This document shows positions 9,546 to 35,979 of a stretch of 39,878 bases of DNA, in pieces. Below the pieces are notes generated by a model that saw nothing but the letters and a program-made list of their open reading frames with translations, ran no database searches and had not been told where the DNA came from. The translations under genes and the position numbers were made by a program. This DNA is from a virus: IMG/VR virus record IMGVR_UViG_3300032093_000326, positions 1 through 39,878 of that record. One strand, given 5' to 3'. Numbering within the stretch: position 1 is the stretch's first letter; the number at the start of each line of letters is the position of its first letter.

Positions 9546-11738
9546 GTGGCTGGTCGTGATATAACCGAAGGTCGTGCCAATCAAGCAATTGCTGTTGATG
9601 TTGGTATCGTATCTACATCTCAATACTGGCAGAATACATCTGACTCATATGATGTAGCAGTTGGTGGACAACCATTCTTCTATGCCATAAATGACCAACG
9701 TCCATACATTAGACAGACTGCACCTTACAAGAAGGACCAGTTTGATAATGGAGCAGAGCCAGGTGAGCAATCACTTACAGGCTGGTGGATAAGAAGTCAA
9801 TCATCATTTCACGGTGGTGAAGGTATTAAGTTCTATGACCCATCTGCTGGTGAAGTAGTTGCCCATAGATTTACAGATAGTAAAGGTGTTAATGTCTGGA
9901 CTAAGGGTGAAGTAACATTACTTAAAGATGTTGCTACTGGCCACGTAACTACATACCCAGTTGAATCTAATGGTCGTGCATTTCAACAATTACGCTCTAT
10001 TAAATGGGGTAGCAATAACGGTGTACTACTACACGATGGATATGATGTAGATAAGATTGATACTGCTGGCGTAGAAACTCACTTCATTGACTTTAATGCT
10101 GGTTCAGATGACAAGGTATATGCAATCTGTGATGATGGTACTGAAGCCTATTGGGTAACTAATGACTCTGGCCCATCTGGAAAACTAGAAGTAAATAAAA
10201 AGCCTTTAACTGGAGATGCATCTACCTCTAAAACAGTATTGTTTACTGCTGCTGGTATTACAGTAACTAATGCTGCTATGGAATACGTTAAAGACCGTAT
10301 TGTTATGGCTGCTAATAATAAGATATATGAGTTTTCTACCTCAGCATCATCATTACCTACTGCTATATATACACACTCAGATTCAGATATTATTTTTACT
10401 TCTATTACAGCATCAGGTCCCGCTATTTATATTGCTGGCTTTAGTGGTATCCAATCATTTATATTTAAGTTTACTCTTAATACATCTGGTTCTATGCCTA
10501 GTCTTACCTCAGCCATTACTGCTGCGGAGATGCCAGTTGGTGAAGTAATACATAAGATTTATTACTATCTAGGTTATATGATGATAGGAACCAATAAGGG
10601 AATTCGTGCAGCAACTGTATCTGACCAAGATGGTTCTATAAATTATGGCCCACTAATTGTAGAAACTACTCAACCTTGCTATGACTTTGCAGCCAGAGAT
10701 AGATTCGTATGGTGTGCAACTAGCGTAGATGGTGAGCCAGGAGTTATCCGCATTGACCTTGGTAATGAGATAGAAACTTTACGTTTTGCTTACGCAAATG
10801 ATTTATATTATTCAGGTGTGTCAGGGGTAGACACTACATCCTGTGCATTTTTAGGAGAGACAAATAGACTTGCATTCTGTACAGAAGCAGTCGACCAAAA
10901 GTCTGTAACTAACAAAGAACGCACTGGCACCACTGCAACTATTACATCTAATGCACACGGCTATGTGGCTGGAGATAAGATATATGTTATTGGTGTAGAT
11001 ACAGCACTAGATGGTGACTTTACTATTACCTCGGTAACTACAAATACAATTACCTATACTACTGCTACATCTGGAACTATTGCATCTACTGCAGTAACTA
11101 CTGGATTTGTTGGCAAGCCTGGTTATTCATATTTAGAAGCAGCATCTACATTGATGTCTACTGGTTATATAACTACAGGATACATTAGATACGGAACCCT
11201 TGAGCCTAAAAACTTTAAGCGTTTACTTGCTCGTGGTGACTTTAATAAAGGTTCATTAGTACTTGAAACTGTAGATAAAGATGGTGTTGAGTATGACCAT
11301 ATTACCTACGAAGCAGGAGTAACTGCAGTTGAAGTTGGTACTAACAATCCTGATACAGCACAAGAGTATGTAGCCTATAAGTTTGTTCTTAACCGTGATG
11401 CTACAACTACTAGCCAAGGACCTACATTTAAGGGCTATCAAGCAAAGGCTACTATTGCTACACCACGTCAAAGAGTTATGAAGTTTCCTGTTTATTGCTT
11501 TGATATAGAAACAGATAGATACAATGTTGTATCTGGATATGAAGGTAAGGCACTAGCACGACTACAACTACTAGAAGGAGTTGAAGAGAATGGCGACGTT
11601 GTTACCTGGCAAGACCTTACTACTGGCGAAAGTCGTCAGGTAGTTGTTGAAGAAATCTCATTTACCCGTATGACCCCACCTGATAAAAGGTTTGATGGGT
11701 TTGGCGGAGTAATTGAGATAACTATTAGAACGGTATAA
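9546..11738 (+). CDS. Large tail hub/tubular protein, propeller-like
   Basis: A 730-residue protein with a GTG start at 9546 behind AAGGAG (9536-9541). It is beta-rich throughout, with recurring blade-like stretches: LRSIKWGSNNGVLLHDGYDVDKI, VYAICDDGTEAYWVTNDSG, YVKDRIVMAANNKIYEFS, IHKIYYYLGYMMIGTNKGIRAA, AARDRFVWCATSVDGEPGVIRIDL. These suggest a beta-propeller core. Residues ~455-525 form a small inserted domain (TTATITSNAHGYVAGDKIYVIG). The C-terminus (VCFDIETDRYN..., GGVIEITIRTV) resembles tail-tip attachment domains. Size, place after the fibres and the fold favour a podovirus nozzle/tubular B-like protein; the match is structural analogy. Confidence 0.6.
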   Translation: MAGRDITEGRANQAIAVDVGIVSTSQYWQNTSDSYDVAVGGQPFFYAINDQRPYIRQTAPYKKDQFDNGAEPGEQSLTGWWIRSQSSFHGGEGIKFYDPSAGEVVAHRFTDSKGVNVWTKGEVTLLKDVATGHVTTYPVESNGRAFQQLRSIKWGSNNGVLLHDGYDVDKIDTAGVETHFIDFNAGSDDKVYAICDDGTEAYWVTNDSGPSGKLEVNKKPLTGDASTSKTVLFTAAGITVTNAAMEYVKDRIVMAANNKIYEFSTSASSLPTAIYTHSDSDIIFTSITASGPAIYIAGFSGIQSFIFKFTLNTSGSMPSLTSAITAAEMPVGEVIHKIYYYLGYMMIGTNKGIRAATVSDQDGSINYGPLIVETTQPCYDFAARDRFVWCATSVDGEPGVIRIDLGNEIETLRFAYANDLYYSGVSGVDTTSCAFLGETNRLAFCTEAVDQKSVTNKERTGTTATITSNAHGYVAGDKIYVIGVDTALDGDFTITSVTTNTITYTTATSGTIASTAVTTGFVGKPGYSYLEAASTLMSTGYITTGYIRYGTLEPKNFKRLLARGDFNKGSLVLETVDKDGVEYDHITYEAGVTAVEVGTNNPDTAQEYVAYKFVLNRDATTTSQGPTFKGYQAKATIATPRQRVMKFPVYCFDIETDRYNVVSGYEGKALARLQLLEGVEENGDVVTWQDLTTGESRQVVVEEISFTRMTPPDKRFDGFGGVIEITIRTV

Positions 11739-14240: not shown

Positions 14241-14482
14241 TAATCACAATCCATTCCGTGGTCATCTATTGGGGTAGGCAGGGTAACTAGTGAACCACAA
14301 TTAACACACTCACCATCTAAGAAGTAAAAGGCTATCTCACCATTTTCAAAGGCTACTATAGCAGTAAATAATTCTGAACCACATAGACAGAAGTCACCTA
14401 TTGAATTACCACGTAGGTCCATTGCTTTGCTGTAATCTTTTTTAAATAAATCTTTTATCTCTTTAGGATTCTGTTCTGTCAT
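14240..14482 (-). CDS. Zinc-ribbon hypothetical protein
   Basis: About 80 residues. Three consecutive in-frame ATGs occur (14488, 14485, 14482); GAGG at 14492-14489 places the best spacing on 14482. Two Cys pairs (FCLCGSELF and ECVNCGSLV) about 24 residues apart make a probable zinc ribbon. The start lies within the last codons of the sigma-like gene, so translation is coupled. Together with its two downstream neighbours and WhiB it forms a run of four Cys-rich small proteins. Confidence 0.7.
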   Translation of the reverse strand: MTEQNPKEIKDLFKKDYSKAMDLRGNSIGDFCLCGSELFTAIVAFENGEIAFYFLDGECVNCGSLVTLPTPIDDHGMDCD

Positions 14483-15125
14483 CATCATCCTCTATATTAT
14501 TTTCTACTATATCTACATCTGTATAGGTACGCCATCCACCTAGTATTTTGATTAAAGAATTAATTGCACGTTCAACTCGTTTACGTGCACCATCAGCAGA
14601 TGTATTTAATTCCTTAGCCATGGTTGTCCACTCGTAGTTATCTGCAGTGAAACGTATTCTTAAAATATTTTGTTTGGCCTCTGCCAATTGATTGAATGCT
14701 TTTTCTATATCTGACCGTAGGACTAGCCAGTTGTTACCATCTGAAACTTCACCCTTACCAAATTTAAAGTTAAGGTCTTTGATTTTATTAGGCAATTCAT
14801 AACTACCTGCAATAATAGATGGCAGAAACGCCTCGACAACTGAGGCGTCATAATAGTAAAGGTCTGCTAATTCATAGCCAGACTTAGCAGACTTTTCTTT
14901 TTCACAATAAGTTATTGCTGCATTGCGTAATGATTTAGCAATTAATTTTTCTTTATCTTTATCTGGTAACTTAGACCATTCTTTATATTTAACTGGATGA
15001 GTAACAAACCACATCCATAATGTCTGTCTAATATCCTCAGCATCAAGCATGGGATATCTTTTAAAATACTCGGAGGCAAGGGAGGATACAAGCAAGTCAT
15101 ACTCTTGTACCCACGCCTCACTCAC
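14463..15125 (-). CDS. Sigma-70-like protein (region 2/region 4 remnants)
   Basis: A 220-residue protein. An N-terminal helical segment (EYFKRYPMLDAEDIRQTLWMWFVTHP) looks like sigma region 2. The C-terminal AFNQLAEAKQNILRIRFTADNYEWTTMAKELNTSADGARKRVERAI has the layout of a region-4 HTH, with a WTTMAKELNTS turn and a recognition helix. Between them is a variable linker, and the tail is acidic (ENNIEDDDD). It could steer host RNA polymerase to phage promoters, or be a sigma-like DNA-binding factor without polymerase contacts. Confidence 0.68.
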   Translation of the reverse strand: MSEAWVQEYDLLVSSLASEYFKRYPMLDAEDIRQTLWMWFVTHPVKYKEWSKLPDKDKEKLIAKSLRNAAITYCEKEKSAKSGYELADLYYYDASVVEAFLPSIIAGSYELPNKIKDLNFKFGKGEVSDGNNWLVLRSDIEKAFNQLAEAKQNILRIRFTADNYEWTTMAKELNTSADGARKRVERAINSLIKILGGWRTYTDVDIVENNIEDDDDRTES

Positions 15126-15410: not shown

Positions 15411-15705
15411 CTAATATCTCCCTAATACTAGTATCAAATTGTTCCATTGCTGCTGTTACTTGTATTTCATCTGTGAATTTTTTACCTTCTCCTATACTGC
15501 TAGCGTATATAGTTATACCTAGTAAGGTAAGCATACGCATAGCACTGTCTGGAGATTCTTCTATAGTTGTATAGATATCTCGTAGTGCACTAAGTATATC
15601 TAAACCTTGGCCATCTGATATGGCCAGGCCAACCATACGTTTATTTTGTCCTACAAAATCCCAGAAGTCTTCGTCATTTTCCCAAGCATTTTCTAATTCG
15701 CTCAT
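15394..15705 (-). CDS. Hypothetical acidic helical protein
   Basis: A 103-residue protein, ATG at 15705, which lies 32 bases inside the TOPRIM gene; its end overlaps the DUF1599-like gene by 17 bases. It is acidic at both ends (ENAWENDEDFWDFVG and SIREILDEESK) with a central hydrophobic helix (AMRMLTLLGITIYASSIG). No membrane segment or motif is recognised. Its tight packing between primase and nucleotide-pool genes suggests a replication accessory. Confidence 0.65.
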   Translation of the reverse strand: MSELENAWENDEDFWDFVGQNKRMVGLAISDGQGLDILSALRDIYTTIEESPDSAMRMLTLLGITIYASSIGEGKKFTDEIQVTAAMEQFDTSIREILDEESK

Positions 15706-16309
15706 CTATCCACTCCTTTCCTTCTTGAATAATGATGCTGTTTACATCATGTCCTTCTGGCATTTGCAGAAGATTAACATTAGTTAATTCCCTACTTAGT
15801 TTTTTACCAAATTCTAGTCCTGGATTATCACCATCTGCTAATACAATTACTGTTTCAAAATCATCTAGTATTTTACCGTAGTATGGTTTCCAATTATTTA
15901 CTCCTGGTATACCAATAGATGGATGATTAGTTTTGGCTGATAAGACTATTGTATCTAACTCACCTTCGGTTACGCATATATAACTATCTGCTGTTAAGAC
16001 TGCTTGTGCATTAAACATTGTAGTCTTAGCCCCAGGTACACCCATATACTTTGGTTCATCTGGATTGTCATTGATACTTCTAAATCTAATATCAACAACA
16101 CCTGATGGTGTTATGTATGGAATTGCTAGTCTACCTTTATATGATTCGTGTCCTGGTAGTGGGTCTTTAACTATCCCTAAATGAAATCTTTTCCCCTCTT
16201 CTACCGAGAGATGACGGGTTGAAAGATACTCCTCTGCGAGATGAAGATGCTTTGCGTATTCTTCCGCTGCTTGGTAAAGAAATGTCCTCTGCGAATTTGA
16301 GAGCCTCAC
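15674..16309 (-). CDS. Primase TOPRIM subunit (DnaG-like), separate gene
   Basis: A 211-residue protein with GTG at 16309 and AAGGAGG about 7 bases upstream. Its first 45 residues match the DnaG core lead-in (AAEEYAKHLHLAEEYLSTRHLS then GKRFHLGIV), and VTEGELDTIVLSA (Glu116) with VLADGDNPG (Asp159, Asp161) form the TOPRIM active site. It lacks a zinc domain, which is on the overlapping gene at 16167-16523 in another frame. It synthesises RNA primers, presumably with the helicase at 17103. Confidence 0.86.
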   Translation of the reverse strand: MRLSNSQRTFLYQAAEEYAKHLHLAEEYLSTRHLSVEEGKRFHLGIVKDPLPGHESYKGRLAIPYITPSGVVDIRFRSINDNPDEPKYMGVPGAKTTMFNAQAVLTADSYICVTEGELDTIVLSAKTNHPSIGIPGVNNWKPYYGKILDDFETVIVLADGDNPGLEFGKKLSRELTNVNLLQMPEGHDVNSIIIQEGKEWIDERIRKCLGK

Positions 16310-16523
16310 TATAACTACCTCCTTGTTTGTATATAATTAAATCGTACACATCGCCTTTTACTTCACAACCAAAACATTTAAATCTGTTCTCTTCAAAATT
16401 AATTGCTGCAGATGCGTGACTATCATCGTGGAATGGACAACGCATCTTGCGCCAGCCATGCCCTTCGTTAGGCAGGCGGGCGCCTATATGTTCTAGGTAG
16501 GCAGCAACACTGTGCTTATCCAT
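16167..16523 (-). CDS. Primase zinc-binding (CHC2) subunit, overlapping the TOPRIM gene
   Basis: A 118-residue protein. Cys29, His32, Cys50 and Cys53 sit in RCPFHDDSHASAAINF and FKCFGCEVKGDVYDLI, the CHC2 zinc ribbon of DnaG. The last ~38 residues (from about SLPSSGRIRKASSSRRG) lie in the 143-bp overlap and are Ser/Arg-rich, with no likeness to primase. The same DNA in the +1 frame encodes the conserved start of the TOPRIM core. Either two proteins are made, or a +1 shift in the overlap yields a fused primase. No ribosome-binding site is evident at ATG 16523. Confidence 0.84.
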   Translation of the reverse strand: MDKHSVAAYLEHIGARLPNEGHGWRKMRCPFHDDSHASAAINFEENRFKCFGCEVKGDVYDLIIYKQGGSYSEALKFAEDISLPSSGRIRKASSSRRGVSFNPSSLGRRGEKISFRDS

Positions 16524-16574: not shown

Positions 16575-16775
16575 TCATTTAACAAGTTTTAACATTCCTT
16601 CTTTGTTGGTATGTTTTCTTACTATTACTAGTGCTAAATCAAAACAAAAGGCTGCTGTAAAATGTGTTTGCTCTGATAGTTTATCATCTTGTCCTTCATA
16701 CATCAATCCTAAATTATTATGATACTTAACTTTTTCTTCTAGTTCATCTATAATATTTTTAATTTCTTCGTTCAT
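16575..16775 (-). CDS. Hypothetical helical protein
   Basis: A 66-residue protein, ATG at 16775, 17 bases inside the resolvase-like gene. The first part is acidic helix (NEEIKNIIDELEEKVKYHNN) and the rest is mixed (THFTAAFCFDLALVIVRKHTN). It has no clear motif. It sits between the primase zinc gene and the nuclease; role unknown. A short non-coding gap (16524-16574) separates it from the primase zinc-subunit gene. Confidence 0.65.
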   Translation of the reverse strand: MNEEIKNIIDELEEKVKYHNNLGLMYEGQDDKLSEQTHFTAAFCFDLALVIVRKHTNKEGMLKLVK

Positions 16776-17106
16776 CTAGTATCTCCTTTATTAGTTCTAT
16801 CCATATCTTTGCTGGCATAGTTGCATACCATTCGCCGACATCTCCTTTGCCTATCCGTTTGTGTATTACTGCACCTGTCCAGGCTTTATCATTTTTAATT
16901 TCTACTTCTAGTTCTTTTACCCAGGCAGATAAATCTAAACGATAATGATTCTTTACTTCTATAACTACACCGTTAACTCCTGCTATATCGCCCTTGTCTA
17001 ACTGTGAGCCTGCGATTCTACGCTCTGCATAAGGAAACCATTTCTTTAACCATTTAACTACATCTGCTTCTGCCTTGGAACCTTTTGCTTTGCGTGGATT
17101 ACTCAT
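16759..17106 (-). CDS. Holliday-junction-resolvase-like PD-(D/E)XK nuclease
   Basis: A 115-residue protein. GSKAEADVVKWLKKWFP (Glu13), LDKGDIAG (Asp40) and VVIEVKNH (Glu50, Lys52) give the E...D...ExK pattern of archaeal-type Hjc and phage resolvase-like nucleases. A basic N-terminus (MSNPRKAKGSK) fits DNA binding. The ATG overlaps the helicase stop (ATGA, 17103-17106). It probably resolves branched replication or packaging DNA; VRR-NUC-type nucleases are an alternative. Confidence 0.77.
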   Translation of the reverse strand: MSNPRKAKGSKAEADVVKWLKKWFPYAERRIAGSQLDKGDIAGVNGVVIEVKNHYRLDLSAWVKELEVEIKNDKAWTGAVIHKRIGKGDVGEWYATMPAKIWIELIKEILDERRN

Positions 17107-17921
17107 CCCAACTCCTGTTGTTGTGGCATATAACGAATCATAACATCATCTAGATGCATAGACTCTGGATTAAATGAAAGAGTTACATAGTTGTTTCCTG
17201 TTTGGTCAGCCCTACCATAACGGTTTTTAACTGGGGCTACACACAAGAAGTTGTCATCTCCTTGTTTCATCTGCCCAATAGTTAAGACCATTGCTGGTAT
17301 CTGGTTAACTAAACCTTGAATAGATGACCGTGATTGACAAGGGTAGCCATCAAATCCTTCTTTAGTATGATGCAATACAAGCACTGCTGCGTTTGTATCT
17401 CTGGCTAGATACTTGAGTTCTTTCATTGCTGCTCGCATACCTTGGAACTCTTCGTGTCCATCCATTGCTATATCCATTAGGTTATCTACAACTATAAGTG
17501 TAGGACTTCTACCCCATACTGTTTCAAATGCAGATACTTCTTCATCTAAATCTTTTAATGTAGGTGTAGATTCAAATGACCAGAACAAATGATTGTTTAA
17601 TAATAGTATCTCGTTTGCTTTGTCTGGGTCTTTCTTTAGTAAGTTCTCTGCCATTGCTTGGCTCATATTACCTGCCATTGCAATTAAACGCATAGCCATA
17701 GTATGAGCATTAGTATCTGCGCTGAAGTAAAGTGTTGGCAGTTTAGTTCTGGCTGCAATTGCTAATGCAATTGATGATTTGCCTGCACCTGGTGTGCCTG
17801 CTATGACCGTTACTTCTGCTCTGCGTAGTATGATGCCTGCTCTTTCAAATGCCTGGAAAGCAGGGGGCAATGGTTCGCCCCCCACCTCGGCTTTTTTAAT
17901 TGAGCGCTTAAGTGTTTTCAC
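17103..17921 (-). CDS. DnaB/RecA-fold replicative helicase-like ATPase
   Basis: A 272-residue protein. Walker A is GTPGAGKS (residues 42-49), Walker B is LIVVDNL, VLVLHHTKEGFDG forms the H-containing loop and PVKNRYGRAD the arginine-finger-side region. The N-terminal domain of full DnaB is missing: only ~35 residues precede the ATPase fold. Such short DnaB-like ATPases occur in actinophage replication modules. It is coupled by 4-base overlap to both neighbours and probably unwinds DNA with the split primase. Confidence 0.83.
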   Translation of the reverse strand: MKTLKRSIKKAEVGGEPLPPAFQAFERAGIILRRAEVTVIAGTPGAGKSSIALAIAARTKLPTLYFSADTNAHTMAMRLIAMAGNMSQAMAENLLKKDPDKANEILLLNNHLFWSFESTPTLKDLDEEVSAFETVWGRSPTLIVVDNLMDIAMDGHEEFQGMRAAMKELKYLARDTNAAVLVLHHTKEGFDGYPCQSRSSIQGLVNQIPAMVLTIGQMKQGDDNFLCVAPVKNRYGRADQTGNNYVTLSFNPESMHLDDVMIRYMPQQQELG

Positions 17922-30451: not shown

Positions 30452-30859
30452 GTGGCACAACAAGGTGGATATAGAAAGCCGACTAACCCAGCCCCAGTAT
30501 CAGGCCCTGGCTCTCTTAGTCAACGCACTGATGGGGGTCCAACACAACCTGCAACCTACATCCCAGGATTACCATACGGACAGGGACAAGAAACCTACAG
30601 TAACCAAGTAGCAGCACCTATGGCTGGTAATCCAATTCCACAAATAGAAATGCCAACACCATTAATGGCGCCTACTGCACGTCCTAACGAACCTATTACT
30701 ACTGGAGTTGATATAGGAGATGGACCTGGTTCAGAAGTAAAGCCAGCACTACCTAATCCTTCATATACAATCCAAGAAGTAATTAGAAATTTAATCCCAT
30801 ACGACCCATCTGGTGATGCTGAATTAATATATAGAAGTTTACTTGACGAAGGGTACTAA
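30452..30859 (+). CDS. Pro/Gly-rich small virion protein
   Basis: A 135-residue protein with GTG 30452 behind TAGGAGGAAG. MAQQGGYRKPTNPAPVSGPGSLSQRTDG begins a Pro/Gly/Thr-rich disordered region with repeated P-rich turns (IPQIEMPTPLMAPTARPNEP), and the C-terminus is a short helix (YTIQEVIRNLIPYD). I know similar disordered proteins next to portal/ejection genes in actinophages but no function. It overlaps the next gene by one base. Confidence 0.7.
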   Translation: MAQQGGYRKPTNPAPVSGPGSLSQRTDGGPTQPATYIPGLPYGQGQETYSNQVAAPMAGNPIPQIEMPTPLMAPTARPNEPITTGVDIGDGPGSEVKPALPNPSYTIQEVIRNLIPYDPSGDAELIYRSLLDEGY

Positions 30860-33800
30860 TGGCATATCGTCTTAACCCAATAGTAGCCAAGGCTAGTCCA
30901 AACCTTTATGCTGCTGCTAAAGCCGCAAATATTCCTATGGAACAAGGAACCCAACTAGAGCAATTTGGTTGGACTGTTGATAAAAACAAAAAACTAAATC
31001 AATTACCTATTGATGTTGCTCGTAAAGAATTTAATGATTTAGACCCTAGTGCTCAAGAAAAATTAAAGTTTTTATTTCCAGAAGCAGATTATCAGTTGCC
31101 AGAGCCAGGTGCTAGCAATTATGTTACTGGTGCATTAAAAACTGGATTTACAGTTCTTAAGAGTCCGTTAGTTTTATTGTTTAAGGCAGCAGGTGTTTTC
31201 AATAGAGCAATTAATACACCATACCTACTAGCCCGTCAGGCTGCACAAGGCGAAGGTTTATTTACTAAAGAGTCATTTAGTGATGCTTGGGATGGCCGTA
31301 GAGTTTATGACCAAGGAGCACTTAATCAGGCTGCAGATTACTTTGGTGTTGAAAAAGTAGAGATAGCAAAAGGTTTAATTGCTGGTAAAAAGCCAGGAGA
31401 AATTATTGCTGCTAGTGGTGCAGTAAATCCAAAATTACTAGAAGCCCTAGAAGAAGCATATAATAATCCAGAATCATTCCAACAGGTAATGGATGGCGTT
31501 AAGAATGCACAGGTATCTCCAGGTAGAGATATTAGCCGTGCTACTGGCATAAAAGGTATTTCTGGTCCTATAGATTTTATATATCAAGTTGCAGTTGACC
31601 CATTAACTTGGGTTACTGGCGGAGCCACTGCTGCTCTTAAAGCCAGAGTATTTGGTTTACAAAATCAAACTGGTACTCAAATGCGTAAGACTATTGAGCA
31701 GTTTGGTGTTGCTGGAGTAAGAGATATATTCCGTGATAACAAAGATGTAGTTAAGTTATGGGATGACCAACTAGGTCCTGCAATTAAGAAACTTAATGAT
31801 GAAGCAGATGAGATTGCTAAAATTGGAATACGTAACGATATTAAAAGACGTTTTCCTGGGTACAACAATGATGAGGCTATTGACTTCTTAGAAAGAAACA
31901 ATGTTGTCAACGCTAGCCGTGCTCAGACAGTTTTTACAAATGTTGATAATCTATCTATGTTTATGGCTGGTAGAGTTGAGGGTGCTCAGTTCTTCCGTAA
32001 TGGTATAGCAACTGCAAGAAACCAACGTAGATTAACTTATGGTGCACAAAAGGCTTTAAGTAACTTTTTAAATCCTAAATCTGGTACAACTAAAGAGGTT
32101 GCTAAATCAGTTGAGGAAATATCAAAGGCACTTGTTAAGGCAGGTTCAACCCGTGAGGCTGAATTAATAGGTCCAGAAATATTAGACTTTACAAAATTTA
32201 CCCGTAAAAACCTTAAAGAAAAAGTTTCTCTTCTTTTAGCACGTACTCCACAAAATAAAGAGATTAAACTTAATGTTACTGATAGAAATCAATCTATAAA
32301 GAGTGCGGATATCTTCAGAGATACAGCACGTCAAGTATTACCTAAAGATTTATCAGAGGCTTTAACTGTTAAGTTTATTAACTCTGATGCAAATGACCAA
32401 GTTGCTATGCTTCGTAGCCTTGATATTGCAATTATGCAACGTTTGGGTATAGAAGGCATAGAAAAGGGTAGAGATTATATAAGAAAAACCCTTGAAGAAA
32501 AGTATGGTTCTTCAGTTGGTGTAGCAGTTACTGAAAAACTAGATGTTCCTATAGGTTTTGAAAATGTTGTATCCAAGGCTGGTACTAAACTAGAAGGCGA
32601 TGCAATAAAATTTGATTCACAAGGTATTATTCACCCATTCCAAGAGCGTGGTGCAATATCTACCCTTGATTATCAACAGTTAGCACAACTTTCTTACGAA
32701 GCAAATAGAGGAAAGATAGTTTCTGCTATGTTTGGTGGCGCTACTCAAAGCGCCCAAGCAACTGCACTTGTTAATTTCTGGTCTTTGTTTACACTTTTCC
32801 CACGTTTGGGTATACGAAGCAGTATTGATGAAGGTTTTATTTACTATCTGACAGCACCTGCTAAAGATTTATTCCAATACTTAGACCGTAAAGGTCATAG
32901 AATGGGTAGAATTGCTGCTGCATACTCTGGTTCTAAGAGTGCTGAGCAGTTAAGAGTTAAAATTGCTAGAGCATTGGGTAGAAAAACCCCTGCTGATATG
33001 TATGATAAAGATGCAAGGCTAGCAATAATCAGAGATTATGCTGAAAAAATTGGTAAAGAGCCAGAAGATTTAACATCCTTTGAGCGTAAGTTTGCTCAGG
33101 CTGAGCACATTACTCAAGCAATGAATAAAAAAGGTTTATTGGGTAAACTAAATGAGACTGAAGCACAGTTTTTAATTCAAGCATTAACCTTAAACTCACA
33201 ATATCTAACAGCAGGTACTAGGTCTATTGCTGCAGGAGCAAGCCTTGTTGGCCGTCAGTCAACTGAAGTAACTGAACAGTTAGTTGATATGAGTAATCTC
33301 GATGTAGCCTATGGTCTTTTCCCAGAGATAGCCCAAGGTAAAAAGGGCCAAAGAGTAGACACAGAAAAGTTGGCTTCACTTCAAGCCCTTGCTGGTCGTG
33401 GTGTTTCCTTGGTTCACTTTGAAAACTTTATCCAACGTTTTTCTGGCAATACTAGAAAAATTAAAGGTATTGGCGAAAACTATAAATTTAATCCAGTTGC
33501 TGCATTTGTATTAAGTAAAGGTCTAAGAACAGAACGTGACTTTGCTGGTGCTAAAACTTACCTATTAGAAAATGTAGGTCTAAGAAAGAATACAGACCTA
33601 TTAGGTAGATTTGATGAGGATGTAATACCTACATTAGGTGTAAAAATTACACACTCAGTCAAAGACCCAGAAGCATTAAAAGACTTTTTAAATATGACAT
33701 CCCATACTAGTGCTTTGCGTTTGCAAGGACTGGATGATATGGAGATTGCTGAAGTCTTAATTGACCGTGTTCTATTAGATATGCGTCAGACTTTCCATGG

Positions 33801-35979
33801 TAGTGCACAAGGATTTAACGAAGCGTTATTCAATAGGTTAAAATCTGGATATGATGATTTAGTGAGAGAAGAACTAGATACTGGAAACACAATATCTAAT
33901 AAGGCTCAAAAAGCAGCACAAAAAATAACCTTTGAAGAGTTTGAAGAATTAACTAAAGGCTATCAACCTAAGGGTAAATTGTTTACTACTATTGAAGCCC
34001 CAGGTATTTCCGATATGGAAACTGCTTATGCAAAACTAGGCAACGGCATGATGGAATTAATGGATAACCAAGTAACAGGTATTCTACGTCAGCCAGTAGT
34101 AATGATTAAGTATCTAGATATCCGTAAAAAATATGATGTTTTAGAGAAACAAATGGCTACAAAACTCTATCTAGATAAACTAAAAGAGTATCAAGATGAG
34201 GGTAAAGTTATTGGTGATAAGGTTAAATCAGCCATCTTGGAGGATACAGCCCAGCATGCTCAGAAACTTGTAACAGAAATATCTGTTCAAGAAGCAGCAG
34301 ATTCTGTATTAAAGTTTGTTGATAACCCTAATGTTAGAACTAACTTTGCTGTATCAGTGCGTAATACTGGTCGTTACTACCGTGCTACTGAAGATTTTTG
34401 GCGCAGAATTTATCGCCTAAAGGATATAGCACCTAGAGTGGTATACCGTATGCGGTTAATGCATCTTGGTTTAGATGCTGCTGGTGGCGTATACAAAGAT
34501 AATAATGGCGAACCATATATTATGATGCCAACAGACAACGTTATATTTGGCGTTGTAGATGCCACAGTTCGTGCTTTAGGACCAGGTGAGCAGAGTTTTA
34601 AACAGCCAAAGTTTAATGAGTTTACATTTAAACTAACCTTGGCTAACCCTTCATTCAGCCCTGATGCTGGTATGCCTACACTATCTGGACCTATTGGTGC
34701 ACTTAGCGTGCTAACTATGAAGTCTTTACTAGGTAAAGTACCGCCAACAAAGGAGTTATCAGAAGAATTAGATAACTACGCCTTGGGTGATATAGGCGAT
34801 GGTATGAATGTAATACGTGCTTTAGTACCTTCGTCATTACAAAAACTATATTCAATAGTACCTAAAGATGAAAAGGATAGGCAAGAATCAACTGCTGCAA
34901 TGCAGGCTATTGCCTACAATCAAGCCTTTAATACTGATGAACAGATGGCTAAGTACTTAGACCCTAATGCATCAGCAGAGGATAAGTATAACTATCTAAA
35001 GCAAATTAGAATATCTGCTCATAACGTAGTTGTAATGCGTAATATTATTGGTTTATTCTCACCAATTGCGCCTTCAATTCAAGAGAGTATTAGCGTTCCA
35101 GATTACCTAAAAGAGGTAGGCATAACAGGACTACGTCCAGAGTTTTATGACCTAGTAAATGCAGTAACTCAGAAATATAAGGGTGATGTTCAAGACCCAT
35201 ATGAGTTAGCAGTTGCTACATTCGTAGGTAAGAATCCAGGTAAGTTAATCTACACAGTTGCTCGTAATGAGAAGACTACTAATGTAGTTATTCAAAAGAC
35301 TAAGGCTGTTAAGTCTTGGGCTATACAAAATGAAACTAATGTTAAGAAGTATGGTGAGGCAGCCTGGATATTTGCACCACATGTAGGAGAGTTTGATGCC
35401 CCTACCTATGCCTATCTAGAGGCAGCAGGACTGCTTGAAAACAAATCTTTAGATAGATACTACCAAGATGTATTAGTAGCAAAAGATAAACAAGCCTACT
35501 ACGATATTGCTAAAGAAGAAAAAGAGTTTTTAAAGTCAACACCTAGCATCAGTGCTCGTAGAGCAAAGATTGCTGATGCAACAAGACGGCGTTCTTTACT
35601 TAAGACTGCTAATCCATTACTAGAAGCAGCCCTTGTGGCTGGTGGTAATGAGGTAGCAACAGAACTAAATATGTTGTCTAACCTTGAAGAGATGATTAAA
35701 GACTCAAATATCAAGATGCCAGTTGGAACACGTCAAAGACTAGCAATGGTTACATCAAGAGTTCGTCAGTTTGTTTCTTTGGCTAATGATGCTTCAATCC
35801 GTGAAGCAGATAACTTTGCTGATATTAAAAGAAATTTCAGAGATGAAGTAGAAAACTTGATTGCAAGTTTAAGTGTTGGAGATGCTGTCCTAACAGAGGC
35901 AAGCAGAGCAATATTTAAATCAATTCTTGGTTACTACTCCCGTGATACTTATACCGCTAAAGCATATAAAGGATACTAA
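30859..35979 (+). CDS. Giant virion protein, candidate internal/ejection protein
   Basis: A 1706-residue protein, the largest gene. It is mostly helical, Lys/Glu/Ala/Asn-rich, with hydrophobic patches near residues 95-130 (FTVLKSPLVLLFKAAGVFNRAI) and around 640-680 (ALVNFWSLFTLFPRLGI, EGFIYYLTAPAKDLFQYL). It has the segment DFIYQVAVDPLTWVTGG. No lysozyme, polymerase or ADP-ribosyl motif is visible. Its place between portal and scaffold and association with two helical neighbours suggest a protein stored in the head and ejected with DNA. A long polyfunctional protein or tape-measure analogue is possible. Confidence 0.72.
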   Translation: MAYRLNPIVAKASPNLYAAAKAANIPMEQGTQLEQFGWTVDKNKKLNQLPIDVARKEFNDLDPSAQEKLKFLFPEADYQLPEPGASNYVTGALKTGFTVLKSPLVLLFKAAGVFNRAINTPYLLARQAAQGEGLFTKESFSDAWDGRRVYDQGALNQAADYFGVEKVEIAKGLIAGKKPGEIIAASGAVNPKLLEALEEAYNNPESFQQVMDGVKNAQVSPGRDISRATGIKGISGPIDFIYQVAVDPLTWVTGGATAALKARVFGLQNQTGTQMRKTIEQFGVAGVRDIFRDNKDVVKLWDDQLGPAIKKLNDEADEIAKIGIRNDIKRRFPGYNNDEAIDFLERNNVVNASRAQTVFTNVDNLSMFMAGRVEGAQFFRNGIATARNQRRLTYGAQKALSNFLNPKSGTTKEVAKSVEEISKALVKAGSTREAELIGPEILDFTKFTRKNLKEKVSLLLARTPQNKEIKLNVTDRNQSIKSADIFRDTARQVLPKDLSEALTVKFINSDANDQVAMLRSLDIAIMQRLGIEGIEKGRDYIRKTLEEKYGSSVGVAVTEKLDVPIGFENVVSKAGTKLEGDAIKFDSQGIIHPFQERGAISTLDYQQLAQLSYEANRGKIVSAMFGGATQSAQATALVNFWSLFTLFPRLGIRSSIDEGFIYYLTAPAKDLFQYLDRKGHRMGRIAAAYSGSKSAEQLRVKIARALGRKTPADMYDKDARLAIIRDYAEKIGKEPEDLTSFERKFAQAEHITQAMNKKGLLGKLNETEAQFLIQALTLNSQYLTAGTRSIAAGASLVGRQSTEVTEQLVDMSNLDVAYGLFPEIAQGKKGQRVDTEKLASLQALAGRGVSLVHFENFIQRFSGNTRKIKGIGENYKFNPVAAFVLSKGLRTERDFAGAKTYLLENVGLRKNTDLLGRFDEDVIPTLGVKITHSVKDPEALKDFLNMTSHTSALRLQGLDDMEIAEVLIDRVLLDMRQTFHGSAQGFNEALFNRLKSGYDDLVREELDTGNTISNKAQKAAQKITFEEFEELTKGYQPKGKLFTTIEAPGISDMETAYAKLGNGMMELMDNQVTGILRQPVVMIKYLDIRKKYDVLEKQMATKLYLDKLKEYQDEGKVIGDKVKSAILEDTAQHAQKLVTEISVQEAADSVLKFVDNPNVRTNFAVSVRNTGRYYRATEDFWRRIYRLKDIAPRVVYRMRLMHLGLDAAGGVYKDNNGEPYIMMPTDNVIFGVVDATVRALGPGEQSFKQPKFNEFTFKLTLANPSFSPDAGMPTLSGPIGALSVLTMKSLLGKVPPTKELSEELDNYALGDIGDGMNVIRALVPSSLQKLYSIVPKDEKDRQESTAAMQAIAYNQAFNTDEQMAKYLDPNASAEDKYNYLKQIRISAHNVVVMRNIIGLFSPIAPSIQESISVPDYLKEVGITGLRPEFYDLVNAVTQKYKGDVQDPYELAVATFVGKNPGKLIYTVARNEKTTNVVIQKTKAVKSWAIQNETNVKKYGEAAWIFAPHVGEFDAPTYAYLEAAGLLENKSLDRYYQDVLVAKDKQAYYDIAKEEKEFLKSTPSISARRAKIADATRRRSLLKTANPLLEAALVAGGNEVATELNMLSNLEEMIKDSNIKMPVGTRQRLAMVTSRVRQFVSLANDASIREADNFADIKRNFRDEVENLIASLSVGDAVLTEASRAIFKSILGYYSRDTYTAKAYKGY

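Follow-up and report, generated by a model that had tools for sequence, protein, structure and literature searches.

When the zinc-binding and catalytic domains of a DnaG-type primase lie in two different reading frames of a viral genome, are they made as two proteins, fused by a programmed +1 frameshift, or separated only by an assembly error? The question, to which the initial annotation offered these three answers, is raised by a locus on the minus strand of the virus record IMGVR_UViG_3300032093_000326, a stretch of 39,878 bases analysed as a whole and called the window below, which also has terminase, portal and other phage genes. The gene of the putative primase zinc subunit (16167–16523, minus strand) begins with ATG at 16523, ends with the stop codon at 16169–16167 and encodes 118 amino acids, namely a CHC2-type zinc-binding domain (residues 1–83) followed by a Ser/Arg-rich tail (residues 84–118). 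The gene of the putative catalytic subunit (15674–16309, minus strand) starts with GTG at 16309, stops at 15674 and encodes 211 amino acids corresponding to an RNA-polymerase domain of the TOPRIM fold. Its frame is +1 relative to the zinc frame, is closed upstream by a TAA at 16339–16337 and is open from 16336. The dual-coding overlap spans 143 bp (16167–16309, minus strand), where the first helices of the catalytic protein share their DNA with the tail and the final helix of the zinc protein.

The coordinates and both domains given initially were borne out by profile searches, which matched the zinc ORF to PF01807 (CHC2; E=4.9e-12) and, over residues 2–108, to PHROG 360 ‘DNA primase’ (E=1.9e-25), and the catalytic ORF to PF13155 (Toprim; E=4.1e-6) and PHROG 849 ‘DNA primase’ (E=6.5e-44). 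The window zinc protein has the ligands C29, H32, C50 and C53 of a Cys-His-Cys2 site; across 55 diverse zinc sequences C29, S38, C50 and C53 never vary, and H32 is kept in more than 90%. In 64 catalytic sequences E115, G116, E117, D119, D159 and D188 are invariant and D161 exceeds 90%, E115 and D159/D161 being the Glu and DxD acidic residues of TOPRIM. With these zinc ligands and acidic residues, the pair qualifies as a DnaG-type primase.

The AlphaFold model of the zinc protein is folded over residues 1–83, with pLDDT below 50 beyond, and Foldseek returned the zinc domains of DnaG (1d0q, 2au3) as its best matches, the matching part of 2au3 being residues 15–90. The catalytic protein was modelled with a mean pLDDT of 95 and, structural matches ranked below primases being disregarded, its fold aligned with DnaG, T7 and T4 primases with Z of 14–23, including Aquifex DnaG 2au3 over residues 99–348 (VIA-align Z 22.6, rmsd 2.4) and T7 primase 1nui (Z 17.8). 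The ORF ends fit the DnaG domain boundary, because the zinc domain ends at residue 90 of 2au3 and the catalytic protein starts at residue 99; judged from these models, the two proteins would cover both the zinc and polymerase domains of DnaG, with nothing apparently missing at the joint. The catalytic protein ends at residue 211, just past TOPRIM, and has no C-terminal helicase-binding domain; the parts of DnaG beyond TOPRIM, including this C-terminal domain, are likewise absent from the primase part of T7.

A search of IMG/VR with the catalytic protein gave at least 80 relatives with 82–100% identity. The comparison of relatives proposed at the outset could thus be made, and all 80 of those listed showed the split with its +1 relation, the second gene starting with GTG or TTG and a Shine-Dalgarno sequence (SD) lying about 8 nt upstream (one locus, L067, is cut by the contig end), the overlap measuring 128, 143, 164, 173 or 179 nt. 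Because the listed closest viral relatives share the same split in 80/80 cases, the overlapping arrangement appears far from chance. An apparent lack of the zinc gene in 13 close-relative loci was rejected, as the motif used was too strict (CPY for CPF) or the contig ended.

Among annotated phage records, relatives of the catalytic protein occur in 1471 and those of the zinc protein in 1206, with Mycobacterium accounting for 935 in either case. In many phage records, many of them from cultured isolates, both genes carry the annotation ‘DNA primase’; such records include cluster A mycobacteriophages as well as phages infecting Streptomyces, Gordonia, Rhodococcus or Propionibacterium. In 2011 the two genes were already recorded for P. 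acnes phages as primase genes that overlap (PMC3094311), and a text on cluster A1 speaks of ‘overlapping DNA primases’ (PMC12613952). The geometry of a zinc ORF and a +1 TOPRIM ORF is common to D29, OKCentral2016, Strosahl, Natosaleda, Treat, phiScoe15, Lannister and Wizzo, and equal geometry was read from the annotation of Kampy and Dwayne. HMMs of both proteins located split pairs at at least 205 loci, of which 201 overlap in +1 and four lack a long overlap; these counts refer to loci among the matches listed, are weighted towards close relatives and leave out ‘no zinc’ loci, which are remote primase-helicases or TOPRIM-only matches. The arrangement is real, conserved and already annotated in more than 1000 phages of actinobacteria; what is new is the comparative evidence in favour of separate subunits and of a translated zinc tail.

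How the catalytic protein might be started is indicated by an AAGGAGG inside the zinc gene (16318–16324, minus strand), the predicted ribosome-binding site of the TOPRIM gene, separated by an 8-nt spacer from the GTG start codon (16307–16309, minus strand). This strong site had been noted initially at GTG 16309, and it proves to be conserved: GTG or TTG stands at the equivalent position in 80/80 of the listed close relatives, and AAGGAGG is kept in nearly all close relatives. Across 68 window-clade sequences, parsimony puts 0 and 1 changes on the third bases of the two SD Gly codons, compared with at least 10 for the third bases of many other invariant zinc-domain residues, and the TOPRIM SD is frozen at the nucleotide level. 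Cluster A keeps both SD and start despite a different zinc-codon phase, reading GAG-GAG-GTG-A where the window clade reads CAA-GGA-GGT, with the start one codon away; as the two groups keep the SD in different phases, its conservation is one of DNA. Among 189 distinct pairs, an anti-SD duplex of −6 kcal/mol or lower is formed at 90% of TOPRIM starts versus 14% of control start triplets, with a slight bias in favour of the former, taken as the best of few candidates. The SD is weak in a few relatives (L091, L100, L267, L244 and L097).

Whether the zinc frame is also read beyond this start can be judged from the overlap itself. The Ser/Arg-rich composition of the zinc tail reported initially is indeed seen, but its charge is about that expected from TOPRIM codons read one base off; composition by itself is uninformative on function, and a DNA-binding adaptation is not claimed for what is roughly a by-product of the +1 reading. 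At TOPRIM third bases, a T that makes a zinc-frame stop never occurs inside the overlap, versus 53% of the same contexts downstream; as this contrast is partly true by definition, third bases were simulated neutrally on the tree, and with rates set to 2 and 3, close to the number of changes observed, all 68 sequences were still without a stop before +125 in 0 of 1000 runs. When single sequences were recoded, an open zinc tail had P of about 0.08 in the window and 0.003–0.004 in genomes with the 173-nt overlap, while GC-rich phages had a median of 0.44, so that openness is only modestly unlikely when sequences are taken singly. Selection keeps the zinc frame stop-free well past the TOPRIM start, and we conclude that the zinc ORF is probably translated all the way to the zinc stop codon. 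In its amino acids the tail is under weak constraint; the core of the zinc domain shows few first- and second-position changes. In Arquatrovirinae, the tails of overlapping pairs (phiScoe15 and Lannister, ...GGGYQPRWRRS) and non-overlapping ones (Alvy and Hank144, ...GYVPAWKRK) are alike, and this resemblance suggests that the tail matters there.

The four pairs without long overlap are those of the Streptomyces phages Alvy and Hank144, of a Streptomyces sp. NRRL F-5123 locus, presumably a prophage (L121), and of a viral contig with a GTGA stop/start (L263). In L121 (2956–2975) the two genes do not overlap at all, the zinc stop TAA being followed by GGAGG, by a TAG in the TOPRIM frame and then by TTG; this pair cannot be joined by one frameshift and must therefore be two proteins. 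Relatives with only a normal fused primase had been named as grounds against the split, and among the loci in the matches listed no intact in-family fusion of zinc and TOPRIM domains was found; other in-frame CHC2-TOPRIM fusions occur only in remote loci of other phyla, such as L139 and L180. A candidate in a Streptomyces sp. TSRI0281 prophage (L127, 2796–3588) joins a truncated zinc protein in frame to a TOPRIM protein without its first helix; being truncated, with the first zinc ligands absent, it was not counted as an in-family fusion, and is apparently the outcome of a deletion in a prophage that is decaying.

These results bear unequally on the possible explanations. That an indel from sequencing or assembly split a normal fused primase gene, an idea for which only the frame change itself speaks, is next to inconceivable: the 80 relatives that share the +1 split come from separate metagenomes, cultured isolates with two annotated primase genes are many, and we reject the error because hundreds of independent genomes carry the same split. 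Very improbable, too, is a zinc ORF that has lost its function or is in decay, with priming left to the catalytic protein alone. Such decay would agree with the weak constraint on the tail and with the absence of the zinc gene from several annotations, and it is opposed by the near-complete invariance of the zinc ligands and S38, by the sparse first- and second-position changes in the core and by the zinc frame being kept stop-free.

Programmed +1 frameshifting in the overlap, which would fuse the zinc and catalytic domains either alone or besides separate proteins, we hold to be unlikely. The frames stand in +1 in 201/205 listed split pairs, a fused product would keep the normal DnaG order, and the geometry permits a shift, since the TOPRIM frame of most relatives opens a few codons ahead of its start, past which the zinc frame continues; moreover, purine-rich SD-like sequences are able to stimulate frameshifting, as in prfB and dnaX. 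A programmed frameshift is also asserted, with evidence unstated, for the primase in the genome announcement of OKCentral2016 (PMC5824014). Yet known +1 sites lie on a stop or slow codon, whereas the zinc frame here is open, and selected to be open, mostly for 128–185 nt past the TOPRIM start. No slip site is shared among the split pairs, whose zinc stop lies mostly 128–185 nt downstream, at codons that differ between pairs, and no unusual RNA structure was found at the window overlap (z=0.35). In most pairs a stop at most 27 nt upstream closes the TOPRIM frame, in cluster A between SD and ATG, and a one-step shift is impossible in L121 and unneeded in Alvy, Hank144 and L263. The +1 shift proposed initially is thus left unsupported by a conserved slip site, a structure or a stop at the shift point, a minor fused product alongside the separate proteins being possible.

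Two separately translated subunits, the catalytic one made by internal initiation and working with the zinc protein in trans, are in our view highly probable. This reading, one of those first proposed, is supported by the conserved split, the conserved start and ribosome-binding site, the selection against zinc-frame stops, the complete domains with their DnaG-like boundaries, and the non-overlapping relatives. For the window virus we infer separate translation, action in trans and contact with the helicase as follows. Ribosomes would initiate the catalytic protein at GTG 16309 via the internal AAGGAGG on an mRNA that would also yield the zinc protein. The zinc protein (118 aa) would recognise the template through its CHC2 domain, and the catalytic protein (211 aa) would carry the RNA-polymerase domain and the TOPRIM active site. 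The zinc domain would act in trans with the catalytic domain of a DnaG/T7-type primase, and both proteins would meet at the fork, probably on the separately encoded DnaB-like helicase. Tethering is dispensable in principle, because in E. coli-type primase the zinc and polymerase domains act between molecules, according to the passage of PMC6783573 that cites Corn et al. (2005).

More broadly, it is likely that actinophages including the window virus possess an obligate two-subunit DnaG-type primase, in which the zinc domain is never tethered, recognition always occurs in trans, the dual-coding overlap holds the genes together and the tail is under selection. In models of priming, the zinc domain of one primase molecule acts on the polymerase domain of a second. 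If the two-subunit reading holds, this primase is naturally cut at the zinc/polymerase boundary, and the trans model would be directly testable with two small proteins. A published experimental test of the two primase subunits was not found in the literature. Neither of the Kampy primases, gp54 and gp55, is among the proteins listed from Kampy proteomics, and the detection of Kampy gene 56 was rejected as proteomic support, as this gene is not a primase.

The closest known systems are the two-gene primases of actinophages (D29 and Kampy among cluster A mycobacteriophages, Strosahl of Gordonia, Natosaleda of Rhodococcus, Treat and phiScoe15 of Streptomyces, and Wizzo of Propionibacterium), which, like the window, have a zinc ORF followed by an overlapping +1 TOPRIM ORF, PHROG 360 and PHROG 849 matches, similar neighbours and, in most, an internal start; the window pair belongs with them by its PHROG 360 zinc ORF, its +1 PHROG 849 TOPRIM ORF and its internal SD and start. 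They differ in their catalytic proteins (27–49% identical), start codon, SD phase and higher GC content. Bacterial DnaG (Aquifex 2au3, B. subtilis 5guj) shares the CHC2 and RNA-polymerase/TOPRIM domains and the same boundary, but is a single chain with an additional helical region and a helicase-binding domain at the C-terminus, whereas the window has two chains ending after TOPRIM. Phage T7 gp4 (1nui, 1q57) has a polymerase domain that is as minimal as here and likewise lacks that helical region. Its zinc site is Cys4, unlike the Cys-His-Cys2 site of the window. In T7 gp4 the zinc, polymerase and helicase parts form one chain, whereas the window has three separate genes. An internal ribosome-binding site is present in T7 gene 4, too (PMC12593628).

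Upstream of the primase pair, the window encodes a DnaB-like replicative helicase (17103–17921, minus strand; 272 aa, RecA core only; PHROG 243, E=7e-73) and, as upstream neighbour, a RusA-like Holliday junction resolvase (16759–17106, minus strand; PHROG 244, E=1.3e-23). With this stand-alone helicase, a T7 gp4-like machine is divided among three same-strand genes, one each for zinc, polymerase and helicase. The same succession of helicase, resolvase, zinc and TOPRIM genes is seen again in phages of Streptomyces and Propionibacterium. A sigma-factor-like protein (14463–15125; PHROG 354, E=1.3e-17) is encoded immediately downstream of the primase pair, and sigma-K-like genes are likewise near the primase in Kimona and BTCU-1.

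As to annotation, the results concern several public phage genomes without an annotated zinc gene and at least one paper that terms the pair a programmed frameshift. The zinc gene is unannotated, its ORF being present, in L092, L093, L094, L099 and L088 (MoneyMay, LeoAvram, Kimona, BTCU-1 and P318), possibly through gene callers dropping overlapping ORFs. LeoAvram gp53 (L093:2254–2529), downstream of the primase pair, is annotated as ‘DNA primase’, probably a mislabel. Elsewhere in the window, an ORF of 1706 aa (30859–35979) had no PHROG match at 1e-5, and one of 730 aa (9546–11738) matched PHROG 11667, of unknown function (7e-146).
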